Part shown: positions 9,862 through 30,940 of the stretch, piece by piece
How the letters are laid out: every line of letters starts with the position of its first letter
Numbering within the stretch: the stretch's first letter is position 1
DNA from: Pseudomonadales bacterium
Lineage (GTDB): Bacteria; Pseudomonadota; Gammaproteobacteria; Pseudomonadales; Azotimanducaceae
Length of the DNA stretch: 64,000 bases
Assembly (NCBI GenBank): GCA_028280225.1
Contig: JANQMF010000077.1
Coordinates: 1 to 64,000 of the forward strand
Reading direction: 5' to 3'
Notes under the pieces: model-generated
Told to the model about the DNA's origin: nothing
The model's input: the letters and a program-made list of their open reading frames with translations, nothing else
The model's database searches: none
Program-made: the position numbers and the translations under genes

Positions 9862-9896
9862 GCGCGGCCGCTGGCGCTATGGGTCGCGCTTTTTTT
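9862..9896 (+). terminator. Intrinsic terminator/attenuator in the operon leader
   Basis: An 8-bp stem (9862-9869 with 9882-9889, one G-U pair), a 12-base loop and a run of seven T (9890-9896). It is a strong Rho-independent terminator by sequence. It lies downstream of site A and upstream of the preferred sulfotransferase start, so it either ends an unrecognised upstream transcript or attenuates the operon. Confidence 0.6.
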
Positions 9897-9977: not shown

Positions 9978-12644
9978 ATGGATATGTTAAGCGAAGAGTC
10001 GGCAAATCTGGCCATTCTCAGAAGTATGGACCGGTCGGAAAACTACGATCTTCTCAAAAGCATGGCAAATAGCTGGTGGCAGGATAAGGGGGATCCCCAG
10101 GTACTGCCGCTGCTGATGATTGGCCAGCTCCTGACCGGGGGCCATAAGGCGGCCCGGGAAACGTTGGATACCCTGGCGGCCCACCACCGGGATCTGTCTG
10201 TGGATTCCCTCTGCGATTTAGCACGAGGGTATCTGATTATGGGCCGGCACAAAGACGCTGAGGGAGAGTTGCACAAGGTCCTGAACAACTCCCCCCGCCA
10301 TCTTGTTGCCCTCTTGCAGATGGGTGTCTGTCTGGTGCAGCAACGGGATTTGCAACGTGCGCGGCCTTACCTGTCTTCAGCCTGGGACAGGTTCCGGGAC
10401 AGTGGCGATTTTTTTCCCGCGGTGCATCACTACGTTGACTGTTTGATCGACAACAACGAGGCCGCCCGGGCCGGTGATGTATTGGATACCGCCTTTGAGG
10501 GGTTGTCGAAGGATGCCAGCGACGAAGAGGTCCTGGGCAGGCGCTGGGATCTGCTGTGCAGTGCCCAGTTCAGAGTGTGGCTGGCCCAGGAAGCTTATGC
10601 AGACGCCGAAGGGTGGTTAGAAAGTCAGCGACAACGCTACGATGATGGAAAAATCGACAAGGATACCTACATCCGGTGGTTGATCTACTATGCCCAGCAA
10701 CTGGCGGCCGGTGATCGTCATGACCACGCGGGTGAGGTGCTTGGGTCGTTAGGTAAAGATTTTGCACAGGACCAGAATCTTGCCGCCTGCCGGGCGGAGA
10801 TTGCCCAGGTTCAAGGCCAGTTGGTGGCGGCGGTGCGGCACATTCGAGCGGCGCTGGATGCGGATCAGCAAAACCTGGCGTTGTGGGTCCGGCTTGCGCA
10901 ATTGTCATTGCGTCAGTTCCCGGTACAAGCCAGAGAGGCGGCCAACAAGATTGGCACCCTGCTGGAAGCGGATGACAAACCCGCCGCCCGGGTGCTGACA
11001 TTGGCGCGCACGGTGATGGCTCAGGTTGAGCTTGAGTATGGTGATGAACAAACCGGGAGTGCGGCGCTGGAAGCCATTTTGGACGAGTTCCCCAAGTTTA
11101 TTCCGGCTTTGATGGCGCTGGGCCACTTTCGTCTGCAACAGGGCCGTATCGAGGAGGCCATTGGACTGTTTGATACCATTAAGGCGCTGGACCCGGCCCA
11201 GGGTTATTCAGCCTTGATGTCCGCCCGTCAATTTCCCGACGACCCCGCTGTTCTTGAGGAACTGGAAGGTGTGGCCCAACGCCCGAGTATCGCCGGGCCG
11301 GAACGGGCAGCCTTGCAGTTCCATCTGGCGGGAGCCTGGGAAAAGCAGGGGGAATACACCCGCGCCTTTGAATTGGTAGACAAGGCCAATCGGGCTAACC
11401 GGGGTAAATTGCGTTACGACGCCCGGCAACACCGCCAGCGTTGCGCGCGCATCCGTTATGCCTTTGGCCGTTCGTTGTACGAACATCGTAAAGACTGTGG
11501 CCACCCGTCCAAACTGCCGGTTTTTGTTGTTGGCATGCCCAGGTCCGGCACTACCCTGGTGGAACAGATTCTATCCGGTCATTCGCAGATTTTTGGCGCC
11601 GGTGAACTGGGTCAGATCCCCCAGGTGGTCCAGGGGATTAACCGTTGGGAACGGCAGATAGGGTCTGCACGTCACTATCCGGATTGTATCGACGATCTTA
11701 CCCCCAAGGTGGTGGAAGGCGTGGCGGAAAACCTGCTGAAGGCTTTGCGCGAATTTGACCAACAGGCCCAACATGTGGTGGACAAATTACCGCACAACTT
11801 CGAAAACATTGGCCTCATTAAGTTCCTGTTTCCTAATGCCAAGGTGATATCCGTACGTCGGGATTCCCGGGACATTGCCATCTCCAACTACTTTACCGAC
11901 TACCAGGCAAAAAACGGCGGTATGGGTTTTGCGTATGACCTGGAGGAGATCGGCGAACAGCTTGCGGATCACAATCTGTTGATGCACCACTGGCACCAGG
12001 TTTTTCCCGGGGAGATTCTGGAAATGCACTATGAGGATCTTGTTGCGGATATCGAGGTGGGGGCTAAGACCATGCTGGACTACATTGGCGTGGCCTGGGA
12101 ACCCCAGGTTCTGGATTTCAGTGAGGTAGAGCGGTCGGTTAAAACCGCCAGCGTGTGGCAGGTCAGACAGCCCCTTTATACCTCGTCGATGGACCGGTGG
12201 CAGCGTTACCAGAACTTTCTTGGGCCGCTGATCCGGGGTACCAATAAATCTATTGAAGTGCATGAACCCATCAAGATGATCACGTTACCGGAGCCCGGTT
12301 TTCTCACCAACGGTATCGAGGCCTATCAGGAAGGAGATCTGGATGCTGCAGAGCTGAGTTTTAAAAAGATGTTACATCACAACCCGGCGCATGCCGCCTG
12401 TGAGTTTATGGTGGGTTTGATCTATGTGCGCAAGAACCATCTGAAGGATGGCATCAGCTACATGGAGGCGGCGATAAAACGGGCGCCTTGGCAGCGGCGT
12501 TGGAAAGAAGACTTGTGCCGGGCGTATCGTCTGGCGGGAGAAGACGCTAAGGCTAATGCCTTGAGCGACACTCTTAAGGGTCCTCCGGTGGGTGAGCCCG
12601 ACGGTGAGGATGCTGTCCAGGCAACCGGTGACTTCACAGGCTGA
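9978..12644 (+). CDS. TPR-repeat sulfotransferase
   Basis: About 888 residues from ATG 9978. Roughly residues 20-500 are tetratricopeptide-like helical repeats. A PAPS-dependent sulfotransferase domain follows: the 5'-phosphosulfate loop GMPRSGTTLVEQIL at about 518-531, and RRDSRDIAISNYF at about 626, matching the 3'-phosphate motif. Two more TPR units close the protein. It should transfer sulfate from PAPS to a peptide or carbohydrate held by the TPR scaffold; the acceptor is unknown. It is the first gene of an operon with a complete type I secretion machine (7-bp gap to the TolC-like gene), suggesting modification before export. The start is uncertain: ATG 9879, GTG 9963 and TTG 9972 are in frame, and ATG 9879 would put site A at the spacing seen for site B. 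Confidence 0.85.
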   Translation: MDMLSEESANLAILRSMDRSENYDLLKSMANSWWQDKGDPQVLPLLMIGQLLTGGHKAARETLDTLAAHHRDLSVDSLCDLARGYLIMGRHKDAEGELHKVLNNSPRHLVALLQMGVCLVQQRDLQRARPYLSSAWDRFRDSGDFFPAVHHYVDCLIDNNEAARAGDVLDTAFEGLSKDASDEEVLGRRWDLLCSAQFRVWLAQEAYADAEGWLESQRQRYDDGKIDKDTYIRWLIYYAQQLAAGDRHDHAGEVLGSLGKDFAQDQNLAACRAEIAQVQGQLVAAVRHIRAALDADQQNLALWVRLAQLSLRQFPVQAREAANKIGTLLEADDKPAARVLTLARTVMAQVELEYGDEQTGSAALEAILDEFPKFIPALMALGHFRLQQGRIEEAIGLFDTIKALDPAQGYSALMSARQFPDDPAVLEELEGVAQRPSIAGPERAALQFHLAGAWEKQGEYTRAFELVDKANRANRGKLRYDARQHRQRCARIRYAFGRSLYEHRKDCGHPSKLPVFVVGMPRSGTTLVEQILSGHSQIFGAGELGQIPQVVQGINRWERQIGSARHYPDCIDDLTPKVVEGVAENLLKALREFDQQAQHVVDKLPHNFENIGLIKFLFPNAKVISVRRDSRDIAISNYFTDYQAKNGGMGFAYDLEEIGEQLADHNLLMHHWHQVFPGEILEMHYEDLVADIEVGAKTMLDYIGVAWEPQVLDFSEVERSVKTASVWQVRQPLYTSSMDRWQRYQNFLGPLIRGTNKSIEVHEPIKMITLPEPGFLTNGIEAYQEGDLDAAELSFKKMLHHNPAHAACEFMVGLIYVRKNHLKDGISYMEAAIKRAPWQRRWKEDLCRAYRLAGEDAKANALSDTLKGPPVGEPDGEDAVQATGDFTG

Positions 12645-12650
12645 AATACG

Positions 12651-13928
12651 TTGCGTATCTGGTTGTTGCTTGTGGTGTTGAGTTGCCCGGGCCTGGTCTG
12701 GTCCCAGCCGGGGAGCGGGTTGCCGGTTGCAGACGATGGCCTGGGTTATGCCCTGGCCAGCGCATTGCTCAATCATCCCAGTATCCAAGGCAAAAACGCA
12801 GAGGTTCTGGCCCAGTCTTATCTGGTGCGCAGTGCCCGTCAGCAGCGTCTGCCTTCTCTCACCACCCATGCCAATAACCTGAACGAAACCCGTGACCAGG
12901 GTAATGTGGCGCTGGACATTCCGTTACTGACCTTTGGCCGCATTGGCGCGGACATCAGGTTGCAAAAAGAACGGCTGAGCGCCGAACGAGTGGATCTGAC
13001 CAAGGTTGAGCGGGATCTTCTGGAACAGACTGCCCTGCAGTATGCCGCGGTGTTGACCGCCCGTGACCAATTGGCGAACGCCCGGGCAAGCTCAGCCGCC
13101 CACGAAGAGTTGCATGATTTCTTAAGCCGACGGGCGGCGGGCCGGCTGGCTGCGGAAGCGGATCTGGTGGTGTCCAGATCGCGCCTGTACCGTGCCCGGG
13201 CGGATGAGCAGCGCTACACGGTAGGCCTGCAAACCGCATTAACGGACCTGCACAGCAGTACCGGGGTGACGGTGCCCGCCCTGCGGCCGGTGGAGTTTTC
13301 CCTGTTCCATACCTTACCGTCCAACCCCGGGGCCTTTGTTGAGCTGGTCATGGAAAACAGCATTGAGGTACAAGCTAAACGCCAGGCTGTGGTGGTGGCT
13401 AGAGCAGACGTCACCAAGGCACGTAAGGTACTGATGCCCACACTTTCCTTCCGCGTTGAAGACGAATTTCTGGATGACAGTCTGGTCAATATTGATCAAT
13501 CCCGGGTGGGATTTGTTTTGCACAGTACCTTGCCGGGTCTGGGATTTGCCGCCCGCAGCCGTGCTCAAGGTGCAGCCGCGGGATTGTCAGCCGCCCGGCA
13601 CGACCTTGCATACACCCGGCAGGAAGCACAACGCCGCGCCCGGCTGCTGACCCAGGAATATGCGCTGTACGTGCAGTTGGAAGATACCTACCGGCAAGCG
13701 GTGCAGGCGCTGGAAGACGCGGTGGCATCGGTGCGCCGCCAATATAATGCGGGCCGGGCATCCTGGCTGGAAATTCTCAATATGCAACGGGAACTGGATC
13801 AGCAGCGCCAGGAAGTTACCCGGATGAGCCACGAGCGGATCTCTGCGCGTTTGCGTATGTATGGTCAGGTAGGGTACCTGCACGGGTTGCATGGGGGGTA
13901 CGCACAAATGGATGATGGCCATGGATGA
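12651..13928 (+). CDS. TolC-family outer-membrane factor
   Basis: A 425-residue protein with a signal peptide (IWLLLVVLSCPGLVWSQ) and two repeats of long amphipathic helices typical of TolC/LapE outer-membrane channels, including the NPGAFVELVMENSIEVQAKR type of second-half opening and the NAGRASWLEILNMQRELDQ segment near the C-terminus. It should form the trimeric exit duct for the adjacent ABC transporter and adaptor. The start is TTG, 7 bp after the sulfotransferase stop, and its end overlaps the ABC gene start. This tight packing supports one operon and one machine. Confidence 0.88.
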   Translation: MRIWLLLVVLSCPGLVWSQPGSGLPVADDGLGYALASALLNHPSIQGKNAEVLAQSYLVRSARQQRLPSLTTHANNLNETRDQGNVALDIPLLTFGRIGADIRLQKERLSAERVDLTKVERDLLEQTALQYAAVLTARDQLANARASSAAHEELHDFLSRRAAGRLAAEADLVVSRSRLYRARADEQRYTVGLQTALTDLHSSTGVTVPALRPVEFSLFHTLPSNPGAFVELVMENSIEVQAKRQAVVVARADVTKARKVLMPTLSFRVEDEFLDDSLVNIDQSRVGFVLHSTLPGLGFAARSRAQGAAAGLSAARHDLAYTRQEAQRRARLLTQEYALYVQLEDTYRQAVQALEDAVASVRRQYNAGRASWLEILNMQRELDQQRQEVTRMSHERISARLRMYGQVGYLHGLHGGYAQMDDGHG

Positions 13929-16050
13929 TTTACCCAGCCTTCCCCACAAACTGGTCAGCCGGTTATTGAAACGCCTGGACATCGCACATCATGCCAGGCG
14001 GCTGGCTCAAGTGTTTGAGGAATCTGAAGAGGGTGTCCATGTCGCCGGCCTGGGTGAAGCCTTGCGTACGGCAAATGTAAAACAGGCCCGCACGGCGCTG
14101 ATGCCGTGGGAAAGATTTGATCTGTCTTCACTGCCTGCCCTGGTTTGCTGGGACGGTGAGTGGTGGCTGGCTGACGGTCAGGGCAAACAGGTGGCATTGC
14201 TGTCCGGGGACGGCCGGACCATGGTTGTGATGCCCAAGGTATTAACGGGTGCCAGGGTGATCTGGCTCACCAACCGCGCCGCGGCAACGGAGAAGTTGGG
14301 CAACAGCCCGGCAACCCGCCTGGTGATGAGTGAACTGTTTGCCCGCCGCCGATGGTTGCTGGATGTCTCACTGGCCACGCTGGTGATTAATCTGCTGGCC
14401 GTGTCGGTGTCGCTGTATGCCATGCAGGTCTATGACCGTGTTGTACCCACCCTGGCTTATGCCACCCTTAAAACTCTGGTTGTGGGTATGTGCATAGTAG
14501 TGGCCCTGGACTGGATCTTAAAAACCTTGCGGGCCCGGGTGCTGGACCGGGTAGCGGTGGACGTGGACCGGCGTATTTCCCAGCGGATTTTCGATCACGT
14601 TGCCGGGCTGTATCTGGACACCCGGCCCAACAGCCTGGGTACTTTGGCATCACAGGTGTCCGGTCTGGACACCCTGCGGAATTTTTTTTCCTCCACGGTG
14701 ATATTTGGTCTTGTGGACCTGCCTTTTGCGCTGATGTTCATCACCTTTATTTGGGTCATAGGCGGACCGGTGGCCTGGGTTTATGTCACCCTGTTACCGC
14801 TAGCCCTGGTGCTGGGTATCGTCTCCCAGGCCCGGTTACGCAGACTGATGCGGGAGCAGGTCATGCGGGCGCACGAACGCCAGGGTATGTTGGTGGACAC
14901 CATCAATGGGGCGGAGTCCATTCACAGTTCCGGATCCGGGGGGCGCTTTGCTGATCTATGGGCCCAACTGACCAGTTCAGTTGCGATATACGGTTATCGG
15001 GCCAAACGCATATCCAACCGTACCACGGTGACTACCGGTTCATTGTCCACCCTGGCCTATGTTTCGGCGGTGGTGGTGGGTGTTGTCGAGGTTGAAGCGG
15101 GCCATTTGACCATGGGCGGTATTATTGCCTGTAGCATTCTGGGTGGACGGGTGATTGCACCCATCGCCCAGGGCGTCCAGCATCTGGTCCAATGGCAGAA
15201 CGTGGCCCAGTCCCTGCGCATGTTGAACTATGTGTTGGGGCTGGAATCCCGCAGCGGCAAAGAACCCGGGCTGCAACCCACCACCGCACCCCGGGAAATT
15301 ACCCTTGAGGGTGTTCAGTTTGCCTACCCGGATACACCGGTGCGGCGTCTGGATGTGGCCAACCTGGCATTTAAGGCGGGCGATCGTGTTGTGGTGTGGG
15401 GTGAGATCGGCTCGGGTAAGTCCACCTTGTTGAAAGTGATTGCCGGGGTATACCGGCCCCAGCTTGGCCGGGTGAAAATAGATGGTGTGGATGTGGGTCA
15501 GTTGGACGGGCGGTGGCTGAACCGGCAGGTGGGTTATCTCCCCCAGGGTATCAGTCTGTTCAAAGGCACCTTAGGTTCCAATATGAATCTGGCGGACACT
15601 GCCGGGGACGATGATCTGGTTACGGTGACCCAATCCCTGGGTATAGATCGAATAGCATCCGGTGGGATGTTTGGCATGGATCTGCCCATCAGCGAAGGGG
15701 GCAGCGGATTGTCCATGGGCCAAAAACAGTTGGTGGCCCTGGCCCGGATTGTTCTGGCCCGGCCCCGTATCTGGCTTTTGGACGAACCCACCGCCGCGCT
15801 GGATGCTTCTTCGGAAGTTGATGTCATTCGCACCTTGAGCGACCGGGTGCGGGCCGAGGATATTGTCATTATCACCACCCATGCCCAGAGTGGTATTGTC
15901 AGTTTGGCCAACCGAGCGCTGCGGGTGCAGGCCGGTAGTGTAGTGGCGGACGGCTCCCCGGCGGAGGTGGCCAAGACCCTGGGACCTCGCCGGCAGCGGA
16001 TACGCGACATTCCCAGCCGCCTGGGCAGGGGGGTGCCGGATGTGGGTTGA
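13912..16050 (+). CDS. Type I secretion ABC transporter (permease/ATPase)
   Basis: About 712 residues. The first 130 are a C39-like domain without a visible catalytic Cys, as in HlyB/LapB-type exporters, which keep it for cargo docking. A six-helix transmembrane domain spans about 140-440 (MQVYDRVVPTLAYATL is typical). The nucleotide-binding domain follows: Walker A GEIGSGKSTLL, signature LSMGQKQ (a variant of LSGGQ) and Walker B IWLLDEPTAALD. It should export unfolded cargo carrying a C-terminal signal. The start overlaps the TolC-like gene; ATG 13912, 13915 and 13921 are all possible, and 13891 adds seven residues. The likely cargo is the repeat protein at 17768. Confidence 0.9.
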   Translation: MMAMDDLPSLPHKLVSRLLKRLDIAHHARRLAQVFEESEEGVHVAGLGEALRTANVKQARTALMPWERFDLSSLPALVCWDGEWWLADGQGKQVALLSGDGRTMVVMPKVLTGARVIWLTNRAAATEKLGNSPATRLVMSELFARRRWLLDVSLATLVINLLAVSVSLYAMQVYDRVVPTLAYATLKTLVVGMCIVVALDWILKTLRARVLDRVAVDVDRRISQRIFDHVAGLYLDTRPNSLGTLASQVSGLDTLRNFFSSTVIFGLVDLPFALMFITFIWVIGGPVAWVYVTLLPLALVLGIVSQARLRRLMREQVMRAHERQGMLVDTINGAESIHSSGSGGRFADLWAQLTSSVAIYGYRAKRISNRTTVTTGSLSTLAYVSAVVVGVVEVEAGHLTMGGIIACSILGGRVIAPIAQGVQHLVQWQNVAQSLRMLNYVLGLESRSGKEPGLQPTTAPREITLEGVQFAYPDTPVRRLDVANLAFKAGDRVVVWGEIGSGKSTLLKVIAGVYRPQLGRVKIDGVDVGQLDGRWLNRQVGYLPQGISLFKGTLGSNMNLADTAGDDDLVTVTQSLGIDRIASGGMFGMDLPISEGGSGLSMGQKQLVALARIVLARPRIWLLDEPTAALDASSEVDVIRTLSDRVRAEDIVIITTHAQSGIVSLANRALRVQAGSVVADGSPAEVAKTLGPRRQRIRDIPSRLGRGVPDVG

Positions 16051-17233
16051 GGCTTTGTTTCGGCGTGACCTGTCTAAAGAACTTCCCGGTACCGGTAAGG
16101 GCCAGTCTTTTATCATCTATGCGCTGGTGGCGGGGATTGCCGGTTTTGTCGCCTGGGCTGCAAGCTTTAATCTGGATCAGGTGGCCCGGGCCTATGGCGA
16201 AGTGATTGCGGTCACCCGGGTCCAGGTTATCCAGTCCGTGGATGGCGGCGTATTGGATGAGTTGGCGGTGCGTGAGGGTGATCGGGTTGAACCGGGTCAG
16301 GTATTGGCGCGCCTGGATCAGGCCAGATTTGGCGCTGCGGTCACCGAGATCGAAGCGCGTTTGGCCGCTTTGCGGGCCAAGGCACGCCGCTTGCGTGCTG
16401 AAGTTGTGCGTGCGCCGCGAGTGGACTTTCCCGAAGCTATCCAAACGTTTCCGGAGTTGGTGCGTCTGGAACAGGCATTGTTCGAACAACGGCGGGCAAA
16501 TCTTCGCGCGCGCTCCGCAAACCTTACTCAGGCGCTGCAACTGGCGGAGGAGGAACTTGCGCTGGTGCTGTCTCTGGCAGCCAACAATGATGTTAATCGT
16601 GCAGAAGTCATTACCGCAGAACGGGCAGTGAATCAGGCCCAGGCCAAAATCATTCACCTGGAAAGTGAGTTCTTCGAAAGCGCCCGCCTGGAACTGTCCC
16701 AAGCCGAGGACCACATTGCCCAGAACGAACAGATCTTAAAGCAGCGCCTGGAACAGCTCGAAGCCAGCGTATTTGTGGCCAAGGTGTCCGGGGTGGTCAA
16801 GAACATCCGGGTCACCACCGTGGGCGGTGTGCTGCGTCCCGGCGAAGAGCTTATGCAGATTATCCCCCTGGGCGATGCCTTGCTGGTTGAGGCCAAGGCC
16901 AGTCCTGCGGATATTGCACAGATCCGCCCGGGTTTACCCGCCACCCTGCGCTTTGACCCCTACGACTACACCATCTATGGCGGAGTAGAGGGACAGGTGG
17001 TCTATGTGAGCGCGGACACCCTGAAGGAAGACACCGCCCAGGGCCAGGAAATCTATTATCGTGTCCATGTGGCCCCCAGCAGCCAGCCGGTAGCCACAAC
17101 CACTGGCAGCCCCATCGACATGATGCCCGGCATGACCGCCCAGGTGGATATTAAGACCAGCGAGCGCACCTTGCTGAACTACTTGCTTAAGCCGGTACGC
17201 AAAACTCTGTCGGAGGCTTTTGGGGAGAGGTAG
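16040..17233 (+). CDS. HlyD-family periplasmic adaptor of the type I system
   Basis: A 397-residue protein with one N-terminal membrane helix (about 24-45), a lipoyl/barrel half-motif (VIAVTRVQVIQSVDGGVLDELAVREGD), a long coiled-coil hairpin (about 90-240) and the returning half (VFVAKVSGVVKNI, then GGVLRPGEELMQIIP). It bridges the ABC transporter in the inner membrane to the TolC-like duct. It overlaps the ABC gene by 11 bp, indicating translational coupling. The region after its stop has no strong terminator. Confidence 0.9.
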   Translation: MWVEALFRRDLSKELPGTGKGQSFIIYALVAGIAGFVAWAASFNLDQVARAYGEVIAVTRVQVIQSVDGGVLDELAVREGDRVEPGQVLARLDQARFGAAVTEIEARLAALRAKARRLRAEVVRAPRVDFPEAIQTFPELVRLEQALFEQRRANLRARSANLTQALQLAEEELALVLSLAANNDVNRAEVITAERAVNQAQAKIIHLESEFFESARLELSQAEDHIAQNEQILKQRLEQLEASVFVAKVSGVVKNIRVTTVGGVLRPGEELMQIIPLGDALLVEAKASPADIAQIRPGLPATLRFDPYDYTIYGGVEGQVVYVSADTLKEDTAQGQEIYYRVHVAPSSQPVATTTGSPIDMMPGMTAQVDIKTSERTLLNYLLKPVRKTLSEAFGER

Positions 17234-17767: not shown

Positions 17768-20700
17768 ATGGGCGAAATCGTCTTAGTGGAGCGCGTCGAT
17801 GGCGCTGATAAAACATGGCAGGTATCCGGGCGGTCTACGCCGCTGACGGTGAGTGCCTCGGCAACGTCGGCGGCGAGGTACGTCTTGAGGCTGGAAGGGG
17901 ATGACTTTGCCAACAGTGAAGTGCGGCAAACCGGTGATGATCTGTTGTTGTTCGTTGATGGCCAACTGGTGCTGACCCTCTCCGGCTTTTTTGCTGACGA
18001 TGCGGCCCACGAACTGGCGTTGATGGCGGGTGACAATCTGGCTGCGACAATTGCTTCCGGGGATGGGGAAAACCCGGATACCGCTGACAATGTGCTTATC
18101 TGGTCCCCGGCGAATGAAACCGCGGCCTGGGCCAGCGAAGATTGGGCAAACTGGGCCGGGCTGCTGGCGGTGGTGGGCGGCGGGATAGCCATTTATGACC
18201 AGATTGACGATGATTCGAGTTCAAGCTTCGTCCCCCCCACCAGCCCGGATCCTGATCCGCCTGTGGATCCCGGCGTGGATTTAGCGCAACTGTCATTGCA
18301 GCTGGTTACCGATAGTGGTGATGCCACCGACGGCATCACCAATGTGGGTGAAGTGGAACTGGTGGACATATCTTTGCTGGTGGAAGGGGCTACGCTGGAA
18401 TACAGCATCGACGGCGGCCAAACCTGGGCCAGCACCTTTACCGCTAAGGAAGGTGACAACAGTGTTCAGGTGCGCCAGGTTGACGAGGATGGTAATACCA
18501 GCCCGGCATCCCAGGTGTTGGAGTTTACCCTGGATAGTACGCCACCCACGGTCAGCATTCAGGTTGACGAAACTGCGTTGGCATTTCTTGGCACGGACAC
18601 CAACGACAACCCGGTCTTAGCTGTTGCCGAAGCTGATCTGTTTACCCTGTCCGGCAGCGAGGATACCGGGTTGGAATTCCGTCTGAATAACGGTAGCTGG
18701 CACCCACTGGATGACTTTGAGAGTGTATTCAACAATGCGCTGGACGATGCCCCCGAGGGCACCTATGTACTGGAGCTACGGCAAACGGATGTGGCGGGTA
18801 ATACCGCGTCAACCACGTTGACCTTTGTCCTGGATTCGGTGGCTAACCTTAACTCTATAATTCCCATCCTGTTCGACGATACCTCTCGCGAGTTTGTTGA
18901 CGGTGGGGATGACGACGGTGTGACTTATGACCCGCGCCTGATGCTGTCACAACCGGATCAGCAACTGGTAAGCGACAATGCGGTGTTGCAATGGCGAATT
19001 CCCGGGGGCAAATGGCAGACCATAGACTGGGATACGGAAAATCCACCTGAACATTTTGATGTTGACGCTGTGGAAGGTCCCAATGTCTTTGAGTTCCGCC
19101 AGGTGATCCTGGATGACAACGGTGTGATCATTGCCCGCAGTACACCCGCTGAGGTGAATTTTATCCTCGATACTACGGTGAGCGATCTAAGCCTGGGTGA
19201 TTATGATCCGGACAGTGGACTGGTGGCTATTGAAGGTCAGGACAGCGATGCAATTTTAGAATACCGGATTAACGCCACCGCCCAGGACAGGGCGGACGAC
19301 ACCGGATGGAGCCGGGAGTATCAGCCTGTGCTGGGCCAGATGGTTCTGGAAGTCCGCCAGATCGACGAAGCGGGTAACGTCAGCCAGGTCAGTGAAAGAA
19401 CTTACAACGTTGCCAGTATACCGGTGCCTGACGAGCAGGTGGTCATATTTGACCTGATGGATGGCACTTCCTCCCACCATCTGGGGCAGCGTGAATTCAA
19501 AGACGGTGTTGAATACTGGATTTACCTGGTGGTGGAGGACCATCATCGGTTAGCCGACGTTATGGAGGAGGGCCACAAGTGGAGGGGTGCTGCAAATCTT
19601 GATGAGGATGACCATATTATCCTGATCTCCGCTGACGGCCGCGTGATCCGGGGTAACCAAAAGGGGGATTTCCAGGGACCACCGGCCTACGAGACCGCCG
19701 ACGCCGTCAATTATGCGGCCTGGCGCACCGAGGACGAAGGGCTGGCGGGTCGGCTTAACGGCCGGGGTGAGTTTGAGCGTCACTTCAACGGACTGATCCG
19801 CGAGCTGGACATCTGGGACGGCACTGAAGAGTGGGGTGATCTCTCAACACGTCCGGAATTGGAGTTGCCCAATTACTGGGTGGAACTCCAATATGCCAAC
19901 GGCACCCGGGTGGACGGTAATCAGATTGATGATCTGAACTTTGTGCTGGCGGAACTTAGCCCCAATCCCCTGGATTTACCTGCGGACAGTGACTGGAATG
20001 TCTGGTTCAGCCTGACCCCTGACGACCCGGATTCATGGGTGGATACCTTTGCGGAATTACCCCTGACTACAGATCCGGACGAAACCACCTACGATATTTA
20101 TGTACGCCAGCAGCGTACCATGAATGGTGAAATTGACTTTATCTCGGAGCCGCTGCTGTACCAGGTGCAGATTGTGCCGGAAGTGGATCCGGAACCCCGA
20201 GTGGTTATCTTCGATCTGGTCAACGGCACCTCAACCAAGGATACCGACAGTACCGAAACTGTTGAGGATCGCACCTTTGACGAACACATCTCCTACACCA
20301 TATATGTGGTTGTTGACGCTATTGGCAACGGCAAAAATGCTGATGGTACCGGTGACCTTTTTCTGGACAGTCAGTATCAATGGCTAGGGGCGTCAAATCT
20401 GGGTAACGACGACAAGATTATCCTGATGTCCAGGGACGGCACCCCCATTCTGGGTAACGATGGCCTGACCCTGCGTCACGATGGTATCGACAACTGGGTT
20501 TACGACGCCCATGACCTGCGCCGCCGCTTTGATGGGACAACCCGGGCGGTGGTGTGGGGAGGATTCAGCGAGAATACTGCTGCCAGCCTGACCAATGGGG
20601 GTGATCTTGTACGTTATACCACCGGTGGCGGTAAGGTCACCGTTGACCTGCTGAATGGGCGTGGCTTTACACAGTTCTTTACCCGAATTGATCAGAATCT

Positions 20701-21511
20701 TGATAGCCCGCAGATTGGCGCTGAGGAATACTGGTTGAATGACGTATATGCCCGTGCGGAAGATCTGAACCCCGGCCCAATTGAGGCTGATGACCTGATC
20801 GTCAGCACCCGTTTGCCGGATGGTTTTGACGGTTGGGAGGTTCAATTTTCCGTGGACGGCACCGACGGAAGCTGGGGGGATGAGGGTGAGCTTGTCGACA
20901 GTCTGAATGGCAGTAATCCCTTTGGCGCCGACTATACGATCCATGTGCGCTTGCACAACCCGGACACCGGCACCGTTACCGAGGATTGGCAGTTCACCAA
21001 ACAGCTCCACGAAGTTGTCAGGTTTGATTTGACCGACGGCGCTATCACCGGTACCGGTAGTACCTCCAGTCCAGGGAGTGATGACCGCACCTTCCAGGCA
21101 GATCACACCTACACCATATTTATTGTGGTTGACCCGGAAAGCGAAACCGTTAGCCTGGCTTCTGATCAGCAGTGGAAGGGTGCCAACAATTTGGGTGCGG
21201 ACGATACCATTGTGCTTATCTCCGATGACGGCAAGCCGATTAAGGGATTTAAGAATGACCCCATTCTCCTTCTTCCGGGTAATCCAGAGTACGGAAGTTT
21301 TTTGGACGACTGGGTCTGGTTTACCGGAGGGCTCGATTCGAAAATTGCCGCAGCAGTAACCGCAGAGGGTTTCTTCACCCGCGCATACAGCAGTAGCACC
21401 ATTACTGTAGACCTGTGGACCAATACAGCACCTGAGTTCTCGAAGATGCTGGTGACCTTTGGTACCCGGAATACTCTGTTGGCGGGTATCTACAATGAAG
21501 CCTTTGTTTAA
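17768..21511 (+). CDS. Large acidic Ig-like repeat protein, probable type I secretion substrate
   Basis: 1247 residues, no Sec signal peptide, very acidic and without a single cysteine, all usual for type I cargo. Residues 1-150 resemble the N-terminal module of BapA-type adhesins, ending in a hydrophobic WASEDWANWAGLLAVVGGG stretch followed by an Asp/Ser/Pro linker. Ig-like repeats follow (about 175-550; LEYSIDGGQTW and VRQVDEDGNTS-like patterns). Three copies of another module start near 558, 811 and 1083, each with a VxxFDLxxGT opening, a YxIYxVV strand, a WxGAxNL motif and DDxIxLIS. No RTX nonapeptides were seen. It probably acts as a secreted or surface adhesin exported by the upstream system. 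It has its own promoter (site B) and an AGGTGA ribosome site. Confidence 0.8.
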   Translation: MGEIVLVERVDGADKTWQVSGRSTPLTVSASATSAARYVLRLEGDDFANSEVRQTGDDLLLFVDGQLVLTLSGFFADDAAHELALMAGDNLAATIASGDGENPDTADNVLIWSPANETAAWASEDWANWAGLLAVVGGGIAIYDQIDDDSSSSFVPPTSPDPDPPVDPGVDLAQLSLQLVTDSGDATDGITNVGEVELVDISLLVEGATLEYSIDGGQTWASTFTAKEGDNSVQVRQVDEDGNTSPASQVLEFTLDSTPPTVSIQVDETALAFLGTDTNDNPVLAVAEADLFTLSGSEDTGLEFRLNNGSWHPLDDFESVFNNALDDAPEGTYVLELRQTDVAGNTASTTLTFVLDSVANLNSIIPILFDDTSREFVDGGDDDGVTYDPRLMLSQPDQQLVSDNAVLQWRIPGGKWQTIDWDTENPPEHFDVDAVEGPNVFEFRQVILDDNGVIIARSTPAEVNFILDTTVSDLSLGDYDPDSGLVAIEGQDSDAILEYRINATAQDRADDTGWSREYQPVLGQMVLEVRQIDEAGNVSQVSERTYNVASIPVPDEQVVIFDLMDGTSSHHLGQREFKDGVEYWIYLVVEDHHRLADVMEEGHKWRGAANLDEDDHIILISADGRVIRGNQKGDFQGPPAYETADAVNYAAWRTEDEGLAGRLNGRGEFERHFNGLIRELDIWDGTEEWGDLSTRPELELPNYWVELQYANGTRVDGNQIDDLNFVLAELSPNPLDLPADSDWNVWFSLTPDDPDSWVDTFAELPLTTDPDETTYDIYVRQQRTMNGEIDFISEPLLYQVQIVPEVDPEPRVVIFDLVNGTSTKDTDSTETVEDRTFDEHISYTIYVVVDAIGNGKNADGTGDLFLDSQYQWLGASNLGNDDKIILMSRDGTPILGNDGLTLRHDGIDNWVYDAHDLRRRFDGTTRAVVWGGFSENTAASLTNGGDLVRYTTGGGKVTVDLLNGRGFTQFFTRIDQNLDSPQIGAEEYWLNDVYARAEDLNPGPIEADDLIVSTRLPDGFDGWEVQFSVDGTDGSWGDEGELVDSLNGSNPFGADYTIHVRLHNPDTGTVTEDWQFTKQLHEVVRFDLTDGAITGTGSTSSPGSDDRTFQADHTYTIFIVVDPESETVSLASDQQWKGANNLGADDTIVLISDDGKPIKGFKNDPILLLPGNPEYGSFLDDWVWFTGGLDSKIAAAVTAEGFFTRAYSSSTITVDLWTNTAPEFSKMLVTFGTRNTLLAGIYNEAFV

Positions 21512-21785: not shown

Positions 21786-22412
21786 ATGCTAAATAAATCT
21801 GATCAACCCAGCGGCTGGCTGACTTATCTATCGATGGTGCTGGCAACCGGGCTGGTGTTCAACGTTGGCCCAACTGCGGCAGGCATTCAACTGGACGATG
21901 GTCACGAATGGGCGCCGGGCATCACCTCCAGTCACCGTCCTTCCGGCGGGGCCTATATGGTTATTGTGCCTGACAGTGATTGTGCCGTTGATAGTGGGTT
22001 GTACGCGTCGTTCTATTTGCTCTACTGCGGTTCGTACCGTTACAAAGACACCGTAGAGGTGGGTGATATGAGGGCCACTTTTCGAGATCAGCAAGGTAAT
22101 ATACTGTTTGAAGTGACCCATCAACCCGATGTTGCGGGATCCGCCGGCTTTGGACTTTACCACGAGCAGCTTGAGAACCTCAGCCGGGATAACCCCAGCG
22201 TCATGGTCCTTGAGTTAAGCCGTTGGGAAAAAGATGTTGAACGTACTGAGCTCCCGGTTGAAGCCTGCGCCTTTGAAATTGATCCGCACTATACTCATCT
22301 GAAGTTTATGGTCCGCGCAGATGGTTTTTTTGGCCAATATAACATTGGGGATGGCGGCATCACCTACGGGGGCTGTGATCCCATAGATACCTCAGACCAT
22401 TATCTGCCGTGA
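21786..22412 (+). CDS. Small exported four-cysteine protein, copy 1
   Basis: A 208-residue protein not matching any family I recognise. It has a signal peptide (LSMVLATGLVFNVGPTAA), then EWAPGITSSHRPSGGAYM, four cysteines that fit two disulfides, a central FRDQ-GN/EV-HQP segment, GFGLYHEQLE, and a C-terminal DHYLP. The paralogue at 30941 keeps all these marks, so they are under constraint. In both loci the gene lies just upstream of an M60-like protein gene, pointing to a functional pair such as a chaperone, inhibitor or adhesin subunit. AAGGA precedes the ATG. No phased repeat promoter is seen in front of it, unlike copy 2. Confidence 0.75.
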   Translation: MLNKSDQPSGWLTYLSMVLATGLVFNVGPTAAGIQLDDGHEWAPGITSSHRPSGGAYMVIVPDSDCAVDSGLYASFYLLYCGSYRYKDTVEVGDMRATFRDQQGNILFEVTHQPDVAGSAGFGLYHEQLENLSRDNPSVMVLELSRWEKDVERTELPVEACAFEIDPHYTHLKFMVRADGFFGQYNIGDGGITYGGCDPIDTSDHYLP

Positions 22413-22512
22413 GCATTACACTGCCAATTGCGGTACCCAGATAGAGCTGCCGCTGACATAGGTTGTCTACGCCGTTTTTGGTAACCAGCGTGTGAACGCT
22501 GCAACTTTTGAT

Positions 22513-22571
22513 AGCCGCGCTTTGTTAAAACAAAGCCTATTCTAAAAAGCCTATTTTAAAGAGGCGCGGCT
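22513..22571 (+). terminator. Long hairpin after small protein 1
   Basis: 8-bp arms AGCCGCGC (22513-22520) and GCGCGGCT (22564-22571) enclose a small TTTGTT/AACAAA hairpin and a direct repeat of AAGCCTATT. The outer arms resemble the terminator after M60-like copy 2 (34445-34473), so it may be a terminator enlarged by a local duplication. Confidence 0.45.
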
Positions 22572-22717
22572 TAATGGCTTCTGCGTGTGTGATCTCTTGT
22601 TTGGGCTAACGATGTTGTCTAAAGGTTATATGATTATGCACACCTTATCCCAAAGCCTTTGATGCTATTTGATTTTTTGGTGAAGTGTTCCGTTGAGTAA
22701 TAGAAAAATATAAATAT

Positions 22718-22772
22718 CGTTAGATATCCGTTAATACTGCGTTGATTCTAAATATATAGCACTCGGTACTAT
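22718..22772 (+). promoter_or_regulatory. Site C: 11-bp phased CGTT repeats plus -35/-10
   Basis: CGTTAG (22718), CGTTAA (22729) and CGTTGA (22740) at exact 11-bp steps. TTGATT (22742-22747) overlaps the last, then 19 bases, then TACTAT (22767-22772). The last repeat begins 64 bases before ATG 22804, exactly as site D does before its own ATG. It is the cleanest of the four sites. Confidence 0.65.
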
Positions 22773-22803
22773 TACGGCTTTCCCATAGCTTTAAGGAAAC
22801 TAA

Positions 22804-25659
22804 ATGAGCTCTAGAGTCGCCACGGCCCACACTTGGCTGATCTGTTTGTCAGTAGTCCTGGCTGGTGTGATAACACCTCTTGCCCACGCAGCTACCGAAT
22901 TGGTCAATATGACCTTTGACAATGGTACTCCACCCGGAAGCCCCACTGGCACAGTGGCTGTCGCCAATGATGGTACCGCTCTGGATCCGAACTACTATCT
23001 GGCCATTCCGGAGATCTGGAACGTGGCTTTGCCTGCTAATCCCTTTGTGGATATAGATGGCCGTAAAGCGGTTAAACTGTCCAACAGCCAGATGGTGGAG
23101 TTCGACCGGCAGACCACCCTTAATGTGGTTTCTAACGATGTGCTGCGTTTATCCATGGATTTTAAGGTTGACCGGCTGGGTAAACAGCCTAACGGCAGGC
23201 CGGAAGGAGTAGTGCTGTTTTCCATGCAGAACTACTTTACAGCCGCTTCTACGTCAAATCCGGATTTAGCGTGGGCGGGCTTCAGACTTATGATGGCCGG
23301 GGATGGTACTGGCCGGGTTACCCTGCTTGCTTCAGATGGCCTGGGTAAACGGCGCCACTATTCCCTGTTTAGCGATGTACCCTACGACACCTGGTATCGC
23401 TTGAATATGATGTTGGATATCAATCAAGGGGTTCTTACCGCAAACCTGGGTGACCGGTATTTTCAGCTTAGCTTGTTTGGACCTTTTGCGGGTGGGATAG
23501 ACTGGAGCAATGTGCTTAAGAGTATTACTGATAACGATGATATTCAAATGCGGTTGGGTTGGGGTTTTTATCCCAACGATGCATACATGGGGGGTTACCG
23601 GGATGCCGTCATTGGCCGAGTGCGCAACCAAGGGCAGTCCCACGAAGGGGTCATGTACTTCGACAATGTCATTGTGCATAACGCCGCACCCAACTTTGAT
23701 CATGCTGATTTCAAAACCGCGGTGGACAGCATCAGCAAAGGTATTACGGATACCTCACTGGATCTTACGTCAGACTATCTCGACTTTCTTGAGTACATGG
23801 TCTTTGCCCTGACGAGCCACTACCTCAGCGAAAATACCACAGAGGTCAACACTTATTTACAGGCCTATGAGACGGCGAAACCACCCCTGTTCAGTGACCG
23901 GGACTATAATAAACAACTGCATACCTATCCCATTGTGGATCGGGTGATGGTCATCCTGCAGCATGACATTGTCGTCAGTCACTTCAACAATAACGATCTC
24001 AGCGATGTGTACAATATTGAGTTCGAATCCCGGGAGGTGTTCCCGGGTCTGGTGGCCGGGGTTGAACATGTGGTGGCTTCCACCGATGCTGATGTGGGGA
24101 TCAACGGCAGTTACAAGGAGTTCCCGGGGATCACCCGCGGCAGTCCCGCCCACCGCCCCACGGGCTACTGGGCGGTGGCCGGGCACAAGGTTAGAGTTTG
24201 CGTTGAAGGAAGTGTGGACACCAGCGGCATGGATGTGATTGTCGGGGCCCATCCGCCGATTAATCTGTCCCGCAAGATCAACCGGAATTATTCCATTGTC
24301 ACCGGCTTTCCTTTTGCGGATAACACCACCGACTGTGTGGATGTGGCCAACCCCTATGGCGGGGGTATCTATGTGCGTGTCCACGAAGGGGTTGATGAGG
24401 GTTTTGTCAACGTTGCCCTGTCCGGCAAAATTGTTGAGTCCCCCTTTTTCGACAATCGCATAGCCAGCAATCGCCCCAGCGGCAAGGCCAAAACCAGCAA
24501 CCGGGACTGGATGCGCATGTTCAGGAAATCTGCGCTGCCGCCCTGGAGCGATCTGGAGTCCGATAATTTTATGATGACAGTACCCAGCAATGCAGCGATC
24601 CTGGTACCACGTCCCAGGGCCGCCCTGGATGGTTGGGACGATATGTATGATGCGGTCAGTGTCTTCCAGGGTCGTGTTGACCGGCCCCGGGCGGAGTATC
24701 TGGTCGTCGACAGTACCTCTTTTTGTGGAGGCTGTTCGGGTTACTGGATGACCCTGCCGCAGAACTCCGCGTTGGAGCCGGTGTCCTCCCGGCAGAATAA
24801 TGGCAGTTGGGTTTACAGCCATGGCTTGGCGCCCTTTAATTTGCTGGATGACCCGAACTTCTCCAGCGCCCGGCGTTTCGACCACTTCCTGCACGAGAAG
24901 GGCCACAACCTGAAACACCCCACTCTGGGTCATGGTAACGAAGAAGAGGCCAAGGCCAATATCATCAAGCTGGTGGGACGTACCGAGGTCCTGGGTGACA
25001 CCATGGATGATGCCCTTAGGTACCATAACCCCCAGGGACTCACCATCGAGCAGGCGGTGATGGACTGGATTATTTCTGATGACTTTATCGACCCGGCGCT
25101 GGGTAGTATGTCAAGCCGCGCATACCAAAGCCGGCCCATGGTCAAGTACATCGATTTGGCGGAGTTGTTTAACGGTTGGGCAACGGTGGGCAACATCATG
25201 AAGGAGTTTTATGCCACCAATGTGGACAGTGTGCCCTGGCCGGGGTTTGAAAAGCACCTTGTTAAGGACCAAGACTTTGCCGAAATGGCTGTGGAAGCCT
25301 TCAACAATGCCGGGCTGGACAATCCCCTGCCGTTGCTGGAGTTCCACGGGGTGGTGCCCACCCAGGCAACCCGTGACAAAGCGGCCATTACTTACGGTTT
25401 GGGTGCAAGCAGCGCCATTCTGACCCGGCTGAATGAGTACAAGGCCCTGGTGCCGGAAACTAAGGCAGAGTTCGCAAGTAAATACTATGAACTGATCACG
25501 CATAGAAGCCAGATTGTGTTGAAGAACCGCTTTTTGGACGCCAAGGACAATTGGGAAACCAAGACCGTTGCCGGGCGGGTTGGCGTCACCGGATATCACG
25601 ACCTGATTGAGGCGCGGATTGACGAAATCATTGCGACCTATGGTCTAAACAGCCCCTAG
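22804..25659 (+). CDS. Exported M60-like metallopeptidase (HEKGH intact), copy 1
   Basis: 951 residues with a Sec signal peptide ending AHA before ATELVNMTF. Residues about 30-300 look like a lectin/LamG-type beta-sandwich. The C-terminal half matches the M60 (enhancin/mucinase) family: APxHRPTGYW and a Val-rich strand, then INLSRKINRNYSIVTGFPF, NPYGGGIYV, and the zinc motif HEKGHN at 697-702 with a glutamate cluster at 713-715 that should hold the third ligand. M60 enzymes cut glycoproteins, often mucin-type O-glycoproteins. The protein should act outside the inner membrane. AAGGAAAC precedes the ATG; site C drives it. The family assignment rests on motifs, not on a search. Confidence 0.8.
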   Translation: MSSRVATAHTWLICLSVVLAGVITPLAHAATELVNMTFDNGTPPGSPTGTVAVANDGTALDPNYYLAIPEIWNVALPANPFVDIDGRKAVKLSNSQMVEFDRQTTLNVVSNDVLRLSMDFKVDRLGKQPNGRPEGVVLFSMQNYFTAASTSNPDLAWAGFRLMMAGDGTGRVTLLASDGLGKRRHYSLFSDVPYDTWYRLNMMLDINQGVLTANLGDRYFQLSLFGPFAGGIDWSNVLKSITDNDDIQMRLGWGFYPNDAYMGGYRDAVIGRVRNQGQSHEGVMYFDNVIVHNAAPNFDHADFKTAVDSISKGITDTSLDLTSDYLDFLEYMVFALTSHYLSENTTEVNTYLQAYETAKPPLFSDRDYNKQLHTYPIVDRVMVILQHDIVVSHFNNNDLSDVYNIEFESREVFPGLVAGVEHVVASTDADVGINGSYKEFPGITRGSPAHRPTGYWAVAGHKVRVCVEGSVDTSGMDVIVGAHPPINLSRKINRNYSIVTGFPFADNTTDCVDVANPYGGGIYVRVHEGVDEGFVNVALSGKIVESPFFDNRIASNRPSGKAKTSNRDWMRMFRKSALPPWSDLESDNFMMTVPSNAAILVPRPRAALDGWDDMYDAVSVFQGRVDRPRAEYLVVDSTSFCGGCSGYWMTLPQNSALEPVSSRQNNGSWVYSHGLAPFNLLDDPNFSSARRFDHFLHEKGHNLKHPTLGHGNEEEAKANIIKLVGRTEVLGDTMDDALRYHNPQGLTIEQAVMDWIISDDFIDPALGSMSSRAYQSRPMVKYIDLAELFNGWATVGNIMKEFYATNVDSVPWPGFEKHLVKDQDFAEMAVEAFNNAGLDNPLPLLEFHGVVPTQATRDKAAITYGLGASSAILTRLNEYKALVPETKAEFASKYYELITHRSQIVLKNRFLDAKDNWETKTVAGRVGVTGYHDLIEARIDEIIATYGLNSP

Positions 25660-25783: not shown

Positions 25784-27766
25784 CTAGCGTCCGGTCAGTA
25801 ACGCATAAACCTTGGAAAGCTGATCCGGCAGGTCTTCCATCTCTTCAATCACCAGATAACGGGCGTCTGGACACATTTGTTTTAGATAGTCCTGGCCCGA
25901 GCGGTCCACGGTCACACAAAATGTTTCCACCCCCTTGGCCTGGGCTTCCAACAGGGCTTTAGCGGTGTCTTCCACCCCGTAGTTGTGGTTGCCCCGTTCC
26001 GGGCCATAGTCAGCGTCCTGGGGAAAGCCGTCGCTGATGACCATCAATACCTTCAAGGCGTGGCCGCTTTCCATCAGTTTGTGCACACCGTGCCGGATGG
26101 CCGGCCCCATACGGGTTGAACGTTTGGGGTTCATGGCGGCTATGGCGTGCATGGTGTGTTGGGAAAACGCCTGGTCCGGCTCCTTGGCAACAAAAATTTC
26201 CACGTTGTCTTTGCCGTAACCGGAAAATCCGTAAATGCCGTAGCTGTCCCCCAGGGCCTCCAGGGCAGATGCCATCACCACCATGGCTTCGCGCTGGATA
26301 TCGATGATCTTACGCTTGGGCCTATCGTCAAATTCTTCCTCGTCTTCGGGTTCTGCCCAGGGATCGCGCAGGTTAACATCGGCGTCTTCGTCGTGGTTTG
26401 ACCAATCCTTGGCTGGCGGTGGATCAATGGGGTCGTCGGTGGACGCTGATAGGTCCACTAGAAACACGGCACACACATCCCGGTGCATACGCTCCTTGCG
26501 GGAGTAAAAACGTTCATCCGGGCTGTGACCAGCCCGGATATCCTGGCGGGCTTCGATGATGGCGTTAAGGTCTAACTCGTCCCCATCTGCCACTCGGGTG
26601 ATCCGTTGTAAGCCGGTGGGACGGATCTGTTCCAGTTGTTTCTGCACCATGGGCTGAAATTTGCGAATTGCCGTCCGCAGTTGGTTCAAAATCTCCTGAT
26701 CCTCGTCACTTCCCGCCGTCAGGTGTTCTTCGTACACCCGGCAATAGTGGGTGAGGTAGCGGTACTCCAGATAATTCCACTCATCGTACCGATAACTCCG
26801 CGCGGCGGATCGGTCCGTGCCCAGGGCATGCTGGACTGAAGACGTTTCCATGTCGATACGCCGCTTTAGAGTATCCCGTTCGTCGATCAGCGACTGAATG
26901 TTCACGTTGGCTTCACGCACGGCAGCGTCGGAAGTCTCGCCGCGTTCCGCTTGCAGGTCTTCTGACTCCAGCATTTCCACGGCAATGGCCATCTCCAGGC
27001 CCTGCAGGTCTTCTTTCCACTCTTCCACCCGTTGTTCCCGGTTAAGCCAGTCGGGCATGGACTCATCTTGCGGCGCATAGGCTGAAGTTTCCGGGAAGAC
27101 ATAACTTTCGGCAACTTTGTCGTAGAGTTGACACAAGGCTAGAACACTGTCGTAAACGCTGCCGGGCTGGTTGCGCAGGTGTGCCAAGGATCGGGTAAGT
27201 TCCGTCCATTGGCTAAGAGGGCTGACTTCCCCCCATAAAAAGCGTTGGCCGGTAACCAGCGCATCGGCGGATGTGGGCCCAATGTGCAGCAGATGCCGGA
27301 AATACCGGGGCATGTGGGGGGTTAATCCGGGGTAGGTGCGTTCCAGGTGGCCGAGGATACGCCCCCTCTCCAGCAGGTTGAACAGTTCAGCCGCAAAACC
27401 CGGCTGGGCAAAGGCACCAAACAGCAGGTGATAGTCTCCCGTGCGGGGTGATACCCCCTTTGGGGGTACAAACCGCTGAGCCAGATTCTGGATACGGCTT
27501 AGTGCTTTGTCCATGCGAAAGCTAAAGGTGCCGCATTCGCGCAGGCCAATCTGCTCCATCACCAGTACCCGATAGCTGCCTCGGTCCGGCGCATCCAGTT
27601 GCTCCGGCAAGTAAATGGTATCGTTAGACTGACCAGTGCCGTTAATGCCCAGGGCCAGGCGGCGGTGAGTGGCAAACTCGTCAGAGGCGGCGATGTGGAA
27701 GTATCGGCCAGCGATGCCTTCGGTAAAAAGAGCCAGGGTGTCTTCGTGATCCGATAGGGTTAACAC
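25784..27766 (-). CDS. VWA-domain protein of the NorD/CbbO type
   Basis: 660 residues. A long helical N-terminal region precedes a von Willebrand A domain (about residue 430 on) with the MIDAS start VFLVDLSASTDD; an acidic insert lies between the MIDAS strand and the next helix. It pairs with the MoxR-type AAA+ gene 6 bp upstream. Such pairs act as metal-dependent chaperones or activators of partner enzymes (NorQD for nitric oxide reductase, CbbQO for Rubisco). No nor or cbb genes lie in the window, so the client is unknown. The next gene on its 3' side converges. Confidence 0.85.
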   Translation of the reverse strand: MLTLSDHEDTLALFTEGIAGRYFHIAASDEFATHRRLALGINGTGQSNDTIYLPEQLDAPDRGSYRVLVMEQIGLRECGTFSFRMDKALSRIQNLAQRFVPPKGVSPRTGDYHLLFGAFAQPGFAAELFNLLERGRILGHLERTYPGLTPHMPRYFRHLLHIGPTSADALVTGQRFLWGEVSPLSQWTELTRSLAHLRNQPGSVYDSVLALCQLYDKVAESYVFPETSAYAPQDESMPDWLNREQRVEEWKEDLQGLEMAIAVEMLESEDLQAERGETSDAAVREANVNIQSLIDERDTLKRRIDMETSSVQHALGTDRSAARSYRYDEWNYLEYRYLTHYCRVYEEHLTAGSDEDQEILNQLRTAIRKFQPMVQKQLEQIRPTGLQRITRVADGDELDLNAIIEARQDIRAGHSPDERFYSRKERMHRDVCAVFLVDLSASTDDPIDPPPAKDWSNHDEDADVNLRDPWAEPEDEEEFDDRPKRKIIDIQREAMVVMASALEALGDSYGIYGFSGYGKDNVEIFVAKEPDQAFSQHTMHAIAAMNPKRSTRMGPAIRHGVHKLMESGHALKVLMVISDGFPQDADYGPERGNHNYGVEDTAKALLEAQAKGVETFCVTVDRSGQDYLKQMCPDARYLVIEEMEDLPDQLSKVYALLTGR

Positions 27767-27772
27767 AGTTGT

Positions 27773-28603: not shown

Positions 28604-28644
28604 GATTGTTCTTTTAGGTTCCTGTTCTTTTGATTTGGCTGGGG

Positions 28645-30843: not shown

Positions 30844-30909
30844 CGTTAGATTTTCGTTGGGCATAGGTTCGGTATATGTTGATTGGCGGAAATAAATAAT
30901 CGTTATCAT
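30844..30909 (+). promoter_or_regulatory. Site D: four 11-bp phased GTT repeats plus -35/-10
   Basis: CGTTAG (30844), CGTTGG (30855), GGTTCG (30866) and TGTTGA (30877) at exact 11-bp steps. TTGATT (30879-30884) overlaps the last, then 19 bases, then TATCAT (30904-30909). The last repeat starts 64 bases before ATG 30941, the same distance as site C before its gene. Confidence 0.6.
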
Positions 30910-30940
30910 GTGTGGATGCCAACAATTTGAGGATAACGGT

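Follow-up and report, generated by a model that had tools for sequence, protein, structure and literature searches.

To our knowledge, enzymatic protein sulfation in bacteria has been characterised for one peptide only, RaxX. In the rax system of Xanthomonas, a 3′-phosphoadenosine 5′-phosphosulfate (PAPS)-type sulfotransferase modelled on TPST is encoded with type I export genes, and modification takes place before export (PMC6637879). Homologues of raxST elsewhere lie mostly away from raxA and raxB, and presumably have other substrates (PMC6637879). Here we describe a locus of a Pseudomonadales bacterium in which a long sulfotransferase flanked by tetratricopeptide repeats (TPRs) is encoded with a type I exporter and a large repeat protein. 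The window, by which we mean the whole stretch of DNA analysed, is the first 64 kb of a 68.5-kb contig (JANQMF010000077.1) from a genome of 4.44 Mb in 242 contigs (96.7% complete). Gene sets of this kind, found in many Gamma-, Beta- and Zetaproteobacteria, look built for sulfating large surface adhesins, and we put a probability of about 65% on the window locus being one copy of a horizontally spread sulfation-and-export module for large type I adhesins.

Our literature searches (subscription papers and preprints were outside their scope) gave no paper joining sulfotransferase, TPR and type I secretion, none joining sulfotransferase and giant adhesin, and none for phrases describing bacterial tyrosine sulfation; the papers combining a sulfotransferase, a type I secretion system and an adhesin were those on Xanthomonas. 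Within that scope, the gene set, which is widespread, is undescribed, and the C-terminal domain of its large proteins was previously unnamed, in agreement with an earlier reading of the window made from its letters (the sequence-only reading), which had called the combination uncharacterised.

Co-occurrence of enzyme, exporter and cargo domain

The enzyme sequence alone was scanned against 84,980 species genomes, which gave 61 loci and 45 full-length orthologues. Carriers include Marinomonas, Colwellia, Psychromonas, Aeromonas fluvialis, Vibrio, Zobellella, Pseudomonas, Kosakonia, Phytobacter, Silvania, Paucibacter, Mariprofundus and others, and the recurrent gene order is large protein, enzyme, TolC, ATP-binding cassette (ABC) protein, HlyD. 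When neighbourhoods were counted for full-length enzymes only (>900 bits), a protein with the C-terminal domain described below lay directly upstream in 32/43 and the exporter downstream in 24/38; one or the other was present in 35/38, as against none of ten loci of shorter TPR-sulfotransferases with at least 8 kb examined on each side (Fisher p 4e-8). In Phytobacter, Kosakonia and Silvania, the gene for a protein of 2650-3332 residues overlaps the enzyme gene by 4 bp; E. coli had no match to the Phytobacter gene. Because the arrangement recurs across Gamma-, Beta- and Zetaproteobacteria, it is not a product of chance. The sequence-only reading had proposed that a TPR-sulfotransferase, a type I exporter and a large repeat cargo belong together, had called for a survey of genomes and had named lack of co-occurrence elsewhere as evidence against it; the survey found them as a conserved unit in other genomes. 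Its idea of the gene set thus stands on much better support than it had, and the strongest elements were absent from it: the C-terminal domain that the cargos have in common, an exporter subtype exclusive to the set and genes for APS kinase.

The short TPR-sulfotransferases (~650-790 residues) share the TPRs and the Sulfotransfer_3 domain with the long enzyme but form a separate clade (support 100/100) and lack the C-terminal TPRs. They occur in many of 58 related genomes (~30-36% identity), of which only one, G030, has a full-length orthologue of the window enzyme (53% identity) and of the predicted cargo, P0005 (46%). One contig of G030 retains the order sulfotransferase-TolC-ABC-HlyD; the cargo gene is on a different contig, beside a gene for an M60-like peptidase.

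In a class-level sample of 369 genomes, those with the full-length long enzyme and those with the domain were the same three. In an order-level sample of 392 genomes, all five genomes with the long enzyme had the domain; a weak signal for it also came from G692 and G709, where the operon cargo-enzyme-TolC-ABC-HlyD contains a divergent enzyme. Co-occurrence of enzyme and domain in the 392 genomes had a Fisher p of 3e-10, or 3e-7 at genus level, the latter being the fairer figure because related species are not independent. Among 343 genomes the exporter subtype scored above 1050 bits in exactly the seven that have the domain (next best score 717; Fisher p 1e-14 for exporter and domain). Three genomes (G000, the window genome, with G543 and G648) contributed rows to the search alignments; G536, G735, G113 and G249 contributed no domain rows, and for these four the co-occurrence is therefore not circular. 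Nor does it stem from adjacency, since in G536 a single enzyme is distant from all six domain places, and G735 likewise has its three domain places elsewhere in the genome, none of them near the enzyme locus. Enzyme, exporter subtype and domain co-occur exclusively.

The best NCBIfam model for the window ABC protein is TIGR03375/LssB, at 552.9 bits and thus below the 693.1-bit cut-off; judged by sequence, the exporter is related to LssB but of a distinct subtype. The sequence-only reading had seen no C39 catalytic cysteine in it, and indeed the N-terminal C39-like region has no Cys, and no N-terminal Cys is invariant across 25 exporters of this kind.

Adenosine 5′-phosphosulfate (APS) kinase makes PAPS, and its gene is the most recurrent non-core neighbour of these loci in an unbiased clustering of neighbouring open reading frames (ORFs). 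On a plasmid of Comamonas endophytica, a 4321-residue cadherin protein ending in the domain is followed by enzyme, TolC, ABC and HlyD and then, 1 nt on, by the APS kinase gene cysC. A cysC gene is located on the same strand after either HlyD or the enzyme in Comamonas, Neptunomonas, Marinobacterium, two Marinomonas and a metagenome-assembled genome labelled Bordetella. In Paucibacter an APS kinase gene lies in the same region, near the exporter, and in Pseudomonas sp. CC6-YY-74 cysC is near the locus on the opposite strand. The window operon has none, and the genome encodes one on contig C223.

Other gene sets were met in the survey. The related long sulfotransferases of Methylovulum (L089, L091, L095, L096) lie downstream of RTX-type proteins belonging to one family, with no domain or exporter nearby; these proteins are perhaps a second cargo class. 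In Magnetococcales (L090 6329-9727, L104 6987-9731), the large proteins that precede the sulfotransferases have a different C-terminal sequence in common. Plasmid pENTE01 of Enterobacter sp. 638 may carry yet another modification set (L139 8035-14248): the gene for a short TPR-sulfotransferase overlaps one for a glycosyltransferase of family 8, and an autotransporter gene comes next.

A predicted TPST-like sulfotransferase

Residues of the enzyme are numbered from the ORF opening at 9879. The Sulfotransfer_3 match reaches 148.2 bits against a curated cut-off of 27, and the PAPS motifs for the 5′-phosphate (PRSGTTL) and the 3′-phosphate (RRDxRDIAIS) are conserved among orthologues. Outside the TPRs the best sequence matches in the PDB are TPST1 and TPST2, and a Foldseek search with the model of the catalytic part returned TPST as the nearest solved fold (TPST1, TMt 0.66). 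In TPST1 the catalytic residues are R79, E100, K159 and S286 (PMC5562738). The first three align with R555, E576 and K636 of the window enzyme. S758 presumably corresponds to S286, as we take it from the shared motif SxxQVxxP; the equivalence is by motif only, since the alignment stops short of S758 and the model is poor there. All four residues are invariant in 29/29 orthologues, as are the PAPS residues. The intact PAPS motifs reported by the sequence-only reading are thus borne out, and the loss of these motifs in orthologues, which it had named as a sign against its proposal, was not seen in that set. Sequence and model together predict a PAPS-dependent TPST-like sulfotransferase.

Large predicted cargos with a common C-terminal domain

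Most of the large proteins upstream of the enzyme carry at their extreme C-terminus a domain of ~150 residues, here called the sulfotransferase-associated domain, with a closing motif near LTSQGL (TSQ-type ending in 33/46 terminal copies). No Pfam or NCBIfam model matches it, and a sequence search of the PDB gave no match. Its structure model is confident (predicted local distance difference test, pLDDT, 95.4; predicted TM-score, pTM, 0.91), and a PDB fold search with the model gave no match (best E 1.1, TM-score <=0.28); assignment of a fold through the PDB was accordingly rejected. The cargos range from ~550 to 4300 residues across loci. Their middles vary, with cadherin, Big_12, Big_13 and DUF4214 repeats, and the middle was rejected as the common feature for that reason. 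In many, a hydrophobic, glycine-rich stretch comes after a prefix-like N-terminal domain, and a profile of seven cargo N-termini matches P0005 at 2.7e-9; by analogy with adhesins of the BapA and LapA type, the cargo may be held at the cell surface by its N-terminal end. Clustering of neighbouring ORFs of at least 100 residues, a search that did not extend to peptides below 80 residues, revealed no other shared substrate.

The window genome has a P0005 paralogue on contig C75, beside an M60-like gene. In the window, 21786-25659 and 30908-34413 are two copies of a pair made up of a small protein of ~208 residues, which belongs to no family and has a Sec-type N-terminus in the first copy, and an M60-like metallopeptidase, with an HEKGH motif in the first pair. 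Relatives of the pair adjoin domain cargos in G030 and on C75, and none was seen at the loci of other genera; the window genus may therefore use the peptidase with its cargo.

Proposed mechanism and alternative explanations

Cargo sulfation is in our view the best explanation of these observations, with about two chances in three of being right. A cytoplasmic TPST-like sulfotransferase would transfer sulfate from PAPS to large type I secretion adhesins, its flanking TPRs binding protein, and the cargos would be recognised through, or at, the ~150-residue C-terminal domain. The dedicated ABC-HlyD-TolC exporter would then send the unfolded chain out, C-terminus first, and the cargo would end up displayed on the cell surface. 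In the window genome the candidate cargos are P0005 and its paralogue on C75. We infer that the cargo is the acceptor, that its C-terminal domain is read by the TPRs and that modification comes before export.

Several observations weigh against this explanation. TPST reads acidic residues near the acceptor through arginines R102, R106 and R285 (PMC5562738). In the window enzyme, R102 and R106 of TPST1 align with G578 and Q582, and the position of R285, next to the catalytic Ser, is A757 (by motif only). Among 45 domain proteins, tyrosines are not enriched for acidic neighbours relative to phenylalanines (strong acidic sites at 7/1662 Tyr vs 14/1683 Phe). P0005 itself lacks the usual C-terminal TSQG tail. 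Furthermore, enzymes of the genus g306 lack the catalytic Arg (one genome also lacks the Glu) with operon and TPRs retained, so that the TPR protein may have a non-catalytic role.

The acceptor is probably not TPST-like, given the lack of enrichment for acidic tyrosine sites, and cargo sulfation, if present, should not be assumed at acidic tyrosines. A RaxX-type acidic tyrosine was rejected as acceptor on the same ground, and the acid-reading residues of TPST are not conserved. Where the enzyme is degenerate, the SSxHSxR element and the C-terminal TSQG tail of the domain are changed or missing; in g306 cargos (two genomes), the HSxR element and the tail are lost and the invariant Tyr25 of the domain is kept. 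These losses hint at which cargo parts go with catalysis. Tyr25 was rejected as acceptor and looks structural, being retained in genomes with a degenerate enzyme. Natural pseudo-sulfotransferases are encoded at L118 10851-12986 (-) and L119 13031-15142 (+), where PRSGTT has become PFSGVS or PFSGCT in the same operon with TPRs. A broader proposal is tentative, and we would sooner expect it to fail than to hold: that this is a general bacterial protein-sulfation-and-display pathway in which a C-terminal domain, with a fold not met in the PDB, is a portable tag for TPR-sulfotransferase and exporter, one enzyme serves several scattered cargos, and the acceptor is not an acidic tyrosine but another site, perhaps close to the SSxHSxR element or to the TSQG tail.

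The enzyme could instead sulfate a surface glycan or lipid, with the co-encoded adhesin binding or organising the sulfated polymer and the two co-inherited as extracellular partners rather than as enzyme and substrate. The breadth of the Sulfotransfer_3 family, the lack of acidic sites at cargo tyrosines and the glycosyltransferase gene beside the short enzyme of pENTE01 would fit such a role. However, polysaccharide genes do not recur round the loci, where APS kinase is the top non-core neighbour; the nearest fold is TPST; and enzyme, domain and exporter subtype stay linked despite widely varying cargo middles. We consider a glycan or lipid substrate unlikely.

Somewhat less probable again is that the TPR protein serves the exporter chiefly by docking cargo or as a chaperone, sulfation being secondary or lost in places. 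This reading draws on G692 and G709, in which the same operon encodes an enzyme without the catalytic Arg (GLPFSG in place of GMPRSG) and TPRs and gene order are kept. Yet this degenerate pair sits on very long branches, catalytic and PAPS residues are kept in the 29/29 other orthologues, APS kinase joins the operon, and docking is in any case compatible with catalysis. That an unrelated sulfotransferase merely lies by chance alongside an ordinary type I adhesin locus is very improbable: both TPR-sulfotransferases and type I adhesins are common in their own right, but the gene order is conserved in many families and the co-occurrence is exclusive, which contradicts it.

Organisation of the window locus

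All three type I components (ABC, HlyD and TolC-type) are encoded together at the window locus, and the sulfotransferase, TolC, ABC and HlyD genes are intact (Table 1). The family names that the sequence-only reading gave these four genes agree with the family scans. It had also favoured the ATG at 9978 as the sulfotransferase start, and this start is likely the right one, preferred over 9879 because the match to orthologues begins at about residue 36-47 and the model has pLDDT <50 for residues 1-36. Of its 7-bp gap and two overlaps, the overlaps stand (38 nt for TolC/ABC, 11 nt for ABC/HlyD) and the gap does not, since the TolC start codon, a TTG, lies 6 nt past the sulfotransferase stop. The P0005 gene begins 534 nt past HlyD and is probably a transcription unit of its own; promoter-like and terminator-like sites are no more frequent than in shuffles, and therefore leave the matter undecided. 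Further along, 25784-28648 (-) encodes a VWA-domain protein beside a CbbQ/NorQ-type AAA ATPase.

Table 1. Coordinates of the sulfotransferase, exporter and predicted cargo features in the window (aa, amino acids; HMM, hidden Markov model).
Feature	Position	Strand	Evidence
Long TPR-sulfotransferase-TPR protein	9978..12644	+	Sulfotransfer_3 5.5e-43 and TPRs; ORF open from 9879
Sulfotransferase domain, aa 547-790 of 9879 ORF	11517..12248	+	
C-terminal TPR pair, long clade only	12285..12548	+	alignment; model helices 808-899, pLDDT mostly >90
TolC-family outer-membrane channel	12651..13928	+	OEP 5.3e-30; type_I_sec_TolC 3.7e-31
Type I ABC exporter, distinct subtype, no C39 cysteine (P0003)	13891..16050	+	ABC_tran and ABC_membrane; TIGR03375 1e-165
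HlyD-family periplasmic adaptor	16040..17233	+	type_I_hlyD TIGR01843 319.6 bits, above cut-off
Predicted cargo P0005, 1247 aa: N-terminal prefix-like domain, immunoglobulin (Ig)-like domains, three sulfotransferase-associated domains	17768..21511	+	
N-terminal domain common to other cargos (aa 32-148 match), then hydrophobic glycine-rich stretch	17768..18211	+	profile
Sulfotransferase-associated domain, copy 1 in P0005	19439..19834	+	HMM 1e-24
Sulfotransferase-associated domain, copy 2 in P0005	20201..20662	+	HMM 5e-21
Sulfotransferase-associated domain, copy 3 in P0005	21017..21457	+	HMM 4e-25; without the family's usual TSQG tail

Significance and comparison with known systems

The gene set suggests that bacteria sulfate large surface proteins prior to display. 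If this is true, bacterial surface chemistry gains a new layer in the form of sulfated adhesins, which would bear on biofilms and on contact with hosts. Culturable genera carry the set (Marinomonas, Colwellia, Psychromonas, Kosakonia, Phytobacter), and a definable domain, a single gene and a simple mass shift offer experimental handles.

The window enzyme resembles human TPST1 and TPST2 in the fold of its catalytic domain and in the catalytic Arg, Glu and Lys (the Ser by motif), and differs from them in having no signal peptide, in being flanked by TPRs and in lacking the arginines that read acidic residues round the tyrosine. With type I giant adhesin systems of the LapA, BapA and SiiE kind, the set shares an LssB-type TolC/ABC/HlyD exporter and cargos with a prefix-like N-terminus, a hydrophobic glycine-rich stretch and Ig or cadherin repeats; it stands apart in its separate exporter subtype and in a C-terminal domain found in no family library. 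We know of no sulfotransferase or APS kinase in such adhesin systems.

In common with raxX-raxST-raxA-raxB, a PAPS-type sulfotransferase is encoded with type I export genes. RaxST is small and is not known to have TPRs, its substrate RaxX is a peptide of 60 residues that has its leader removed by the exporter RaxB, and TolC is encoded elsewhere. In contrast, the cargos of the present set are ~550-4300 residues long and share a C-terminal domain, the exporter has no C39 Cys and TolC is in the operon; these cargos are not small double-glycine peptides (the clustering for other substrates took in ORFs of at least 100 residues, and peptides below 80 were not searched), and the exporter is not of the C39 peptidase kind. 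The set resembles the logic of RaxX and is not a rax system.

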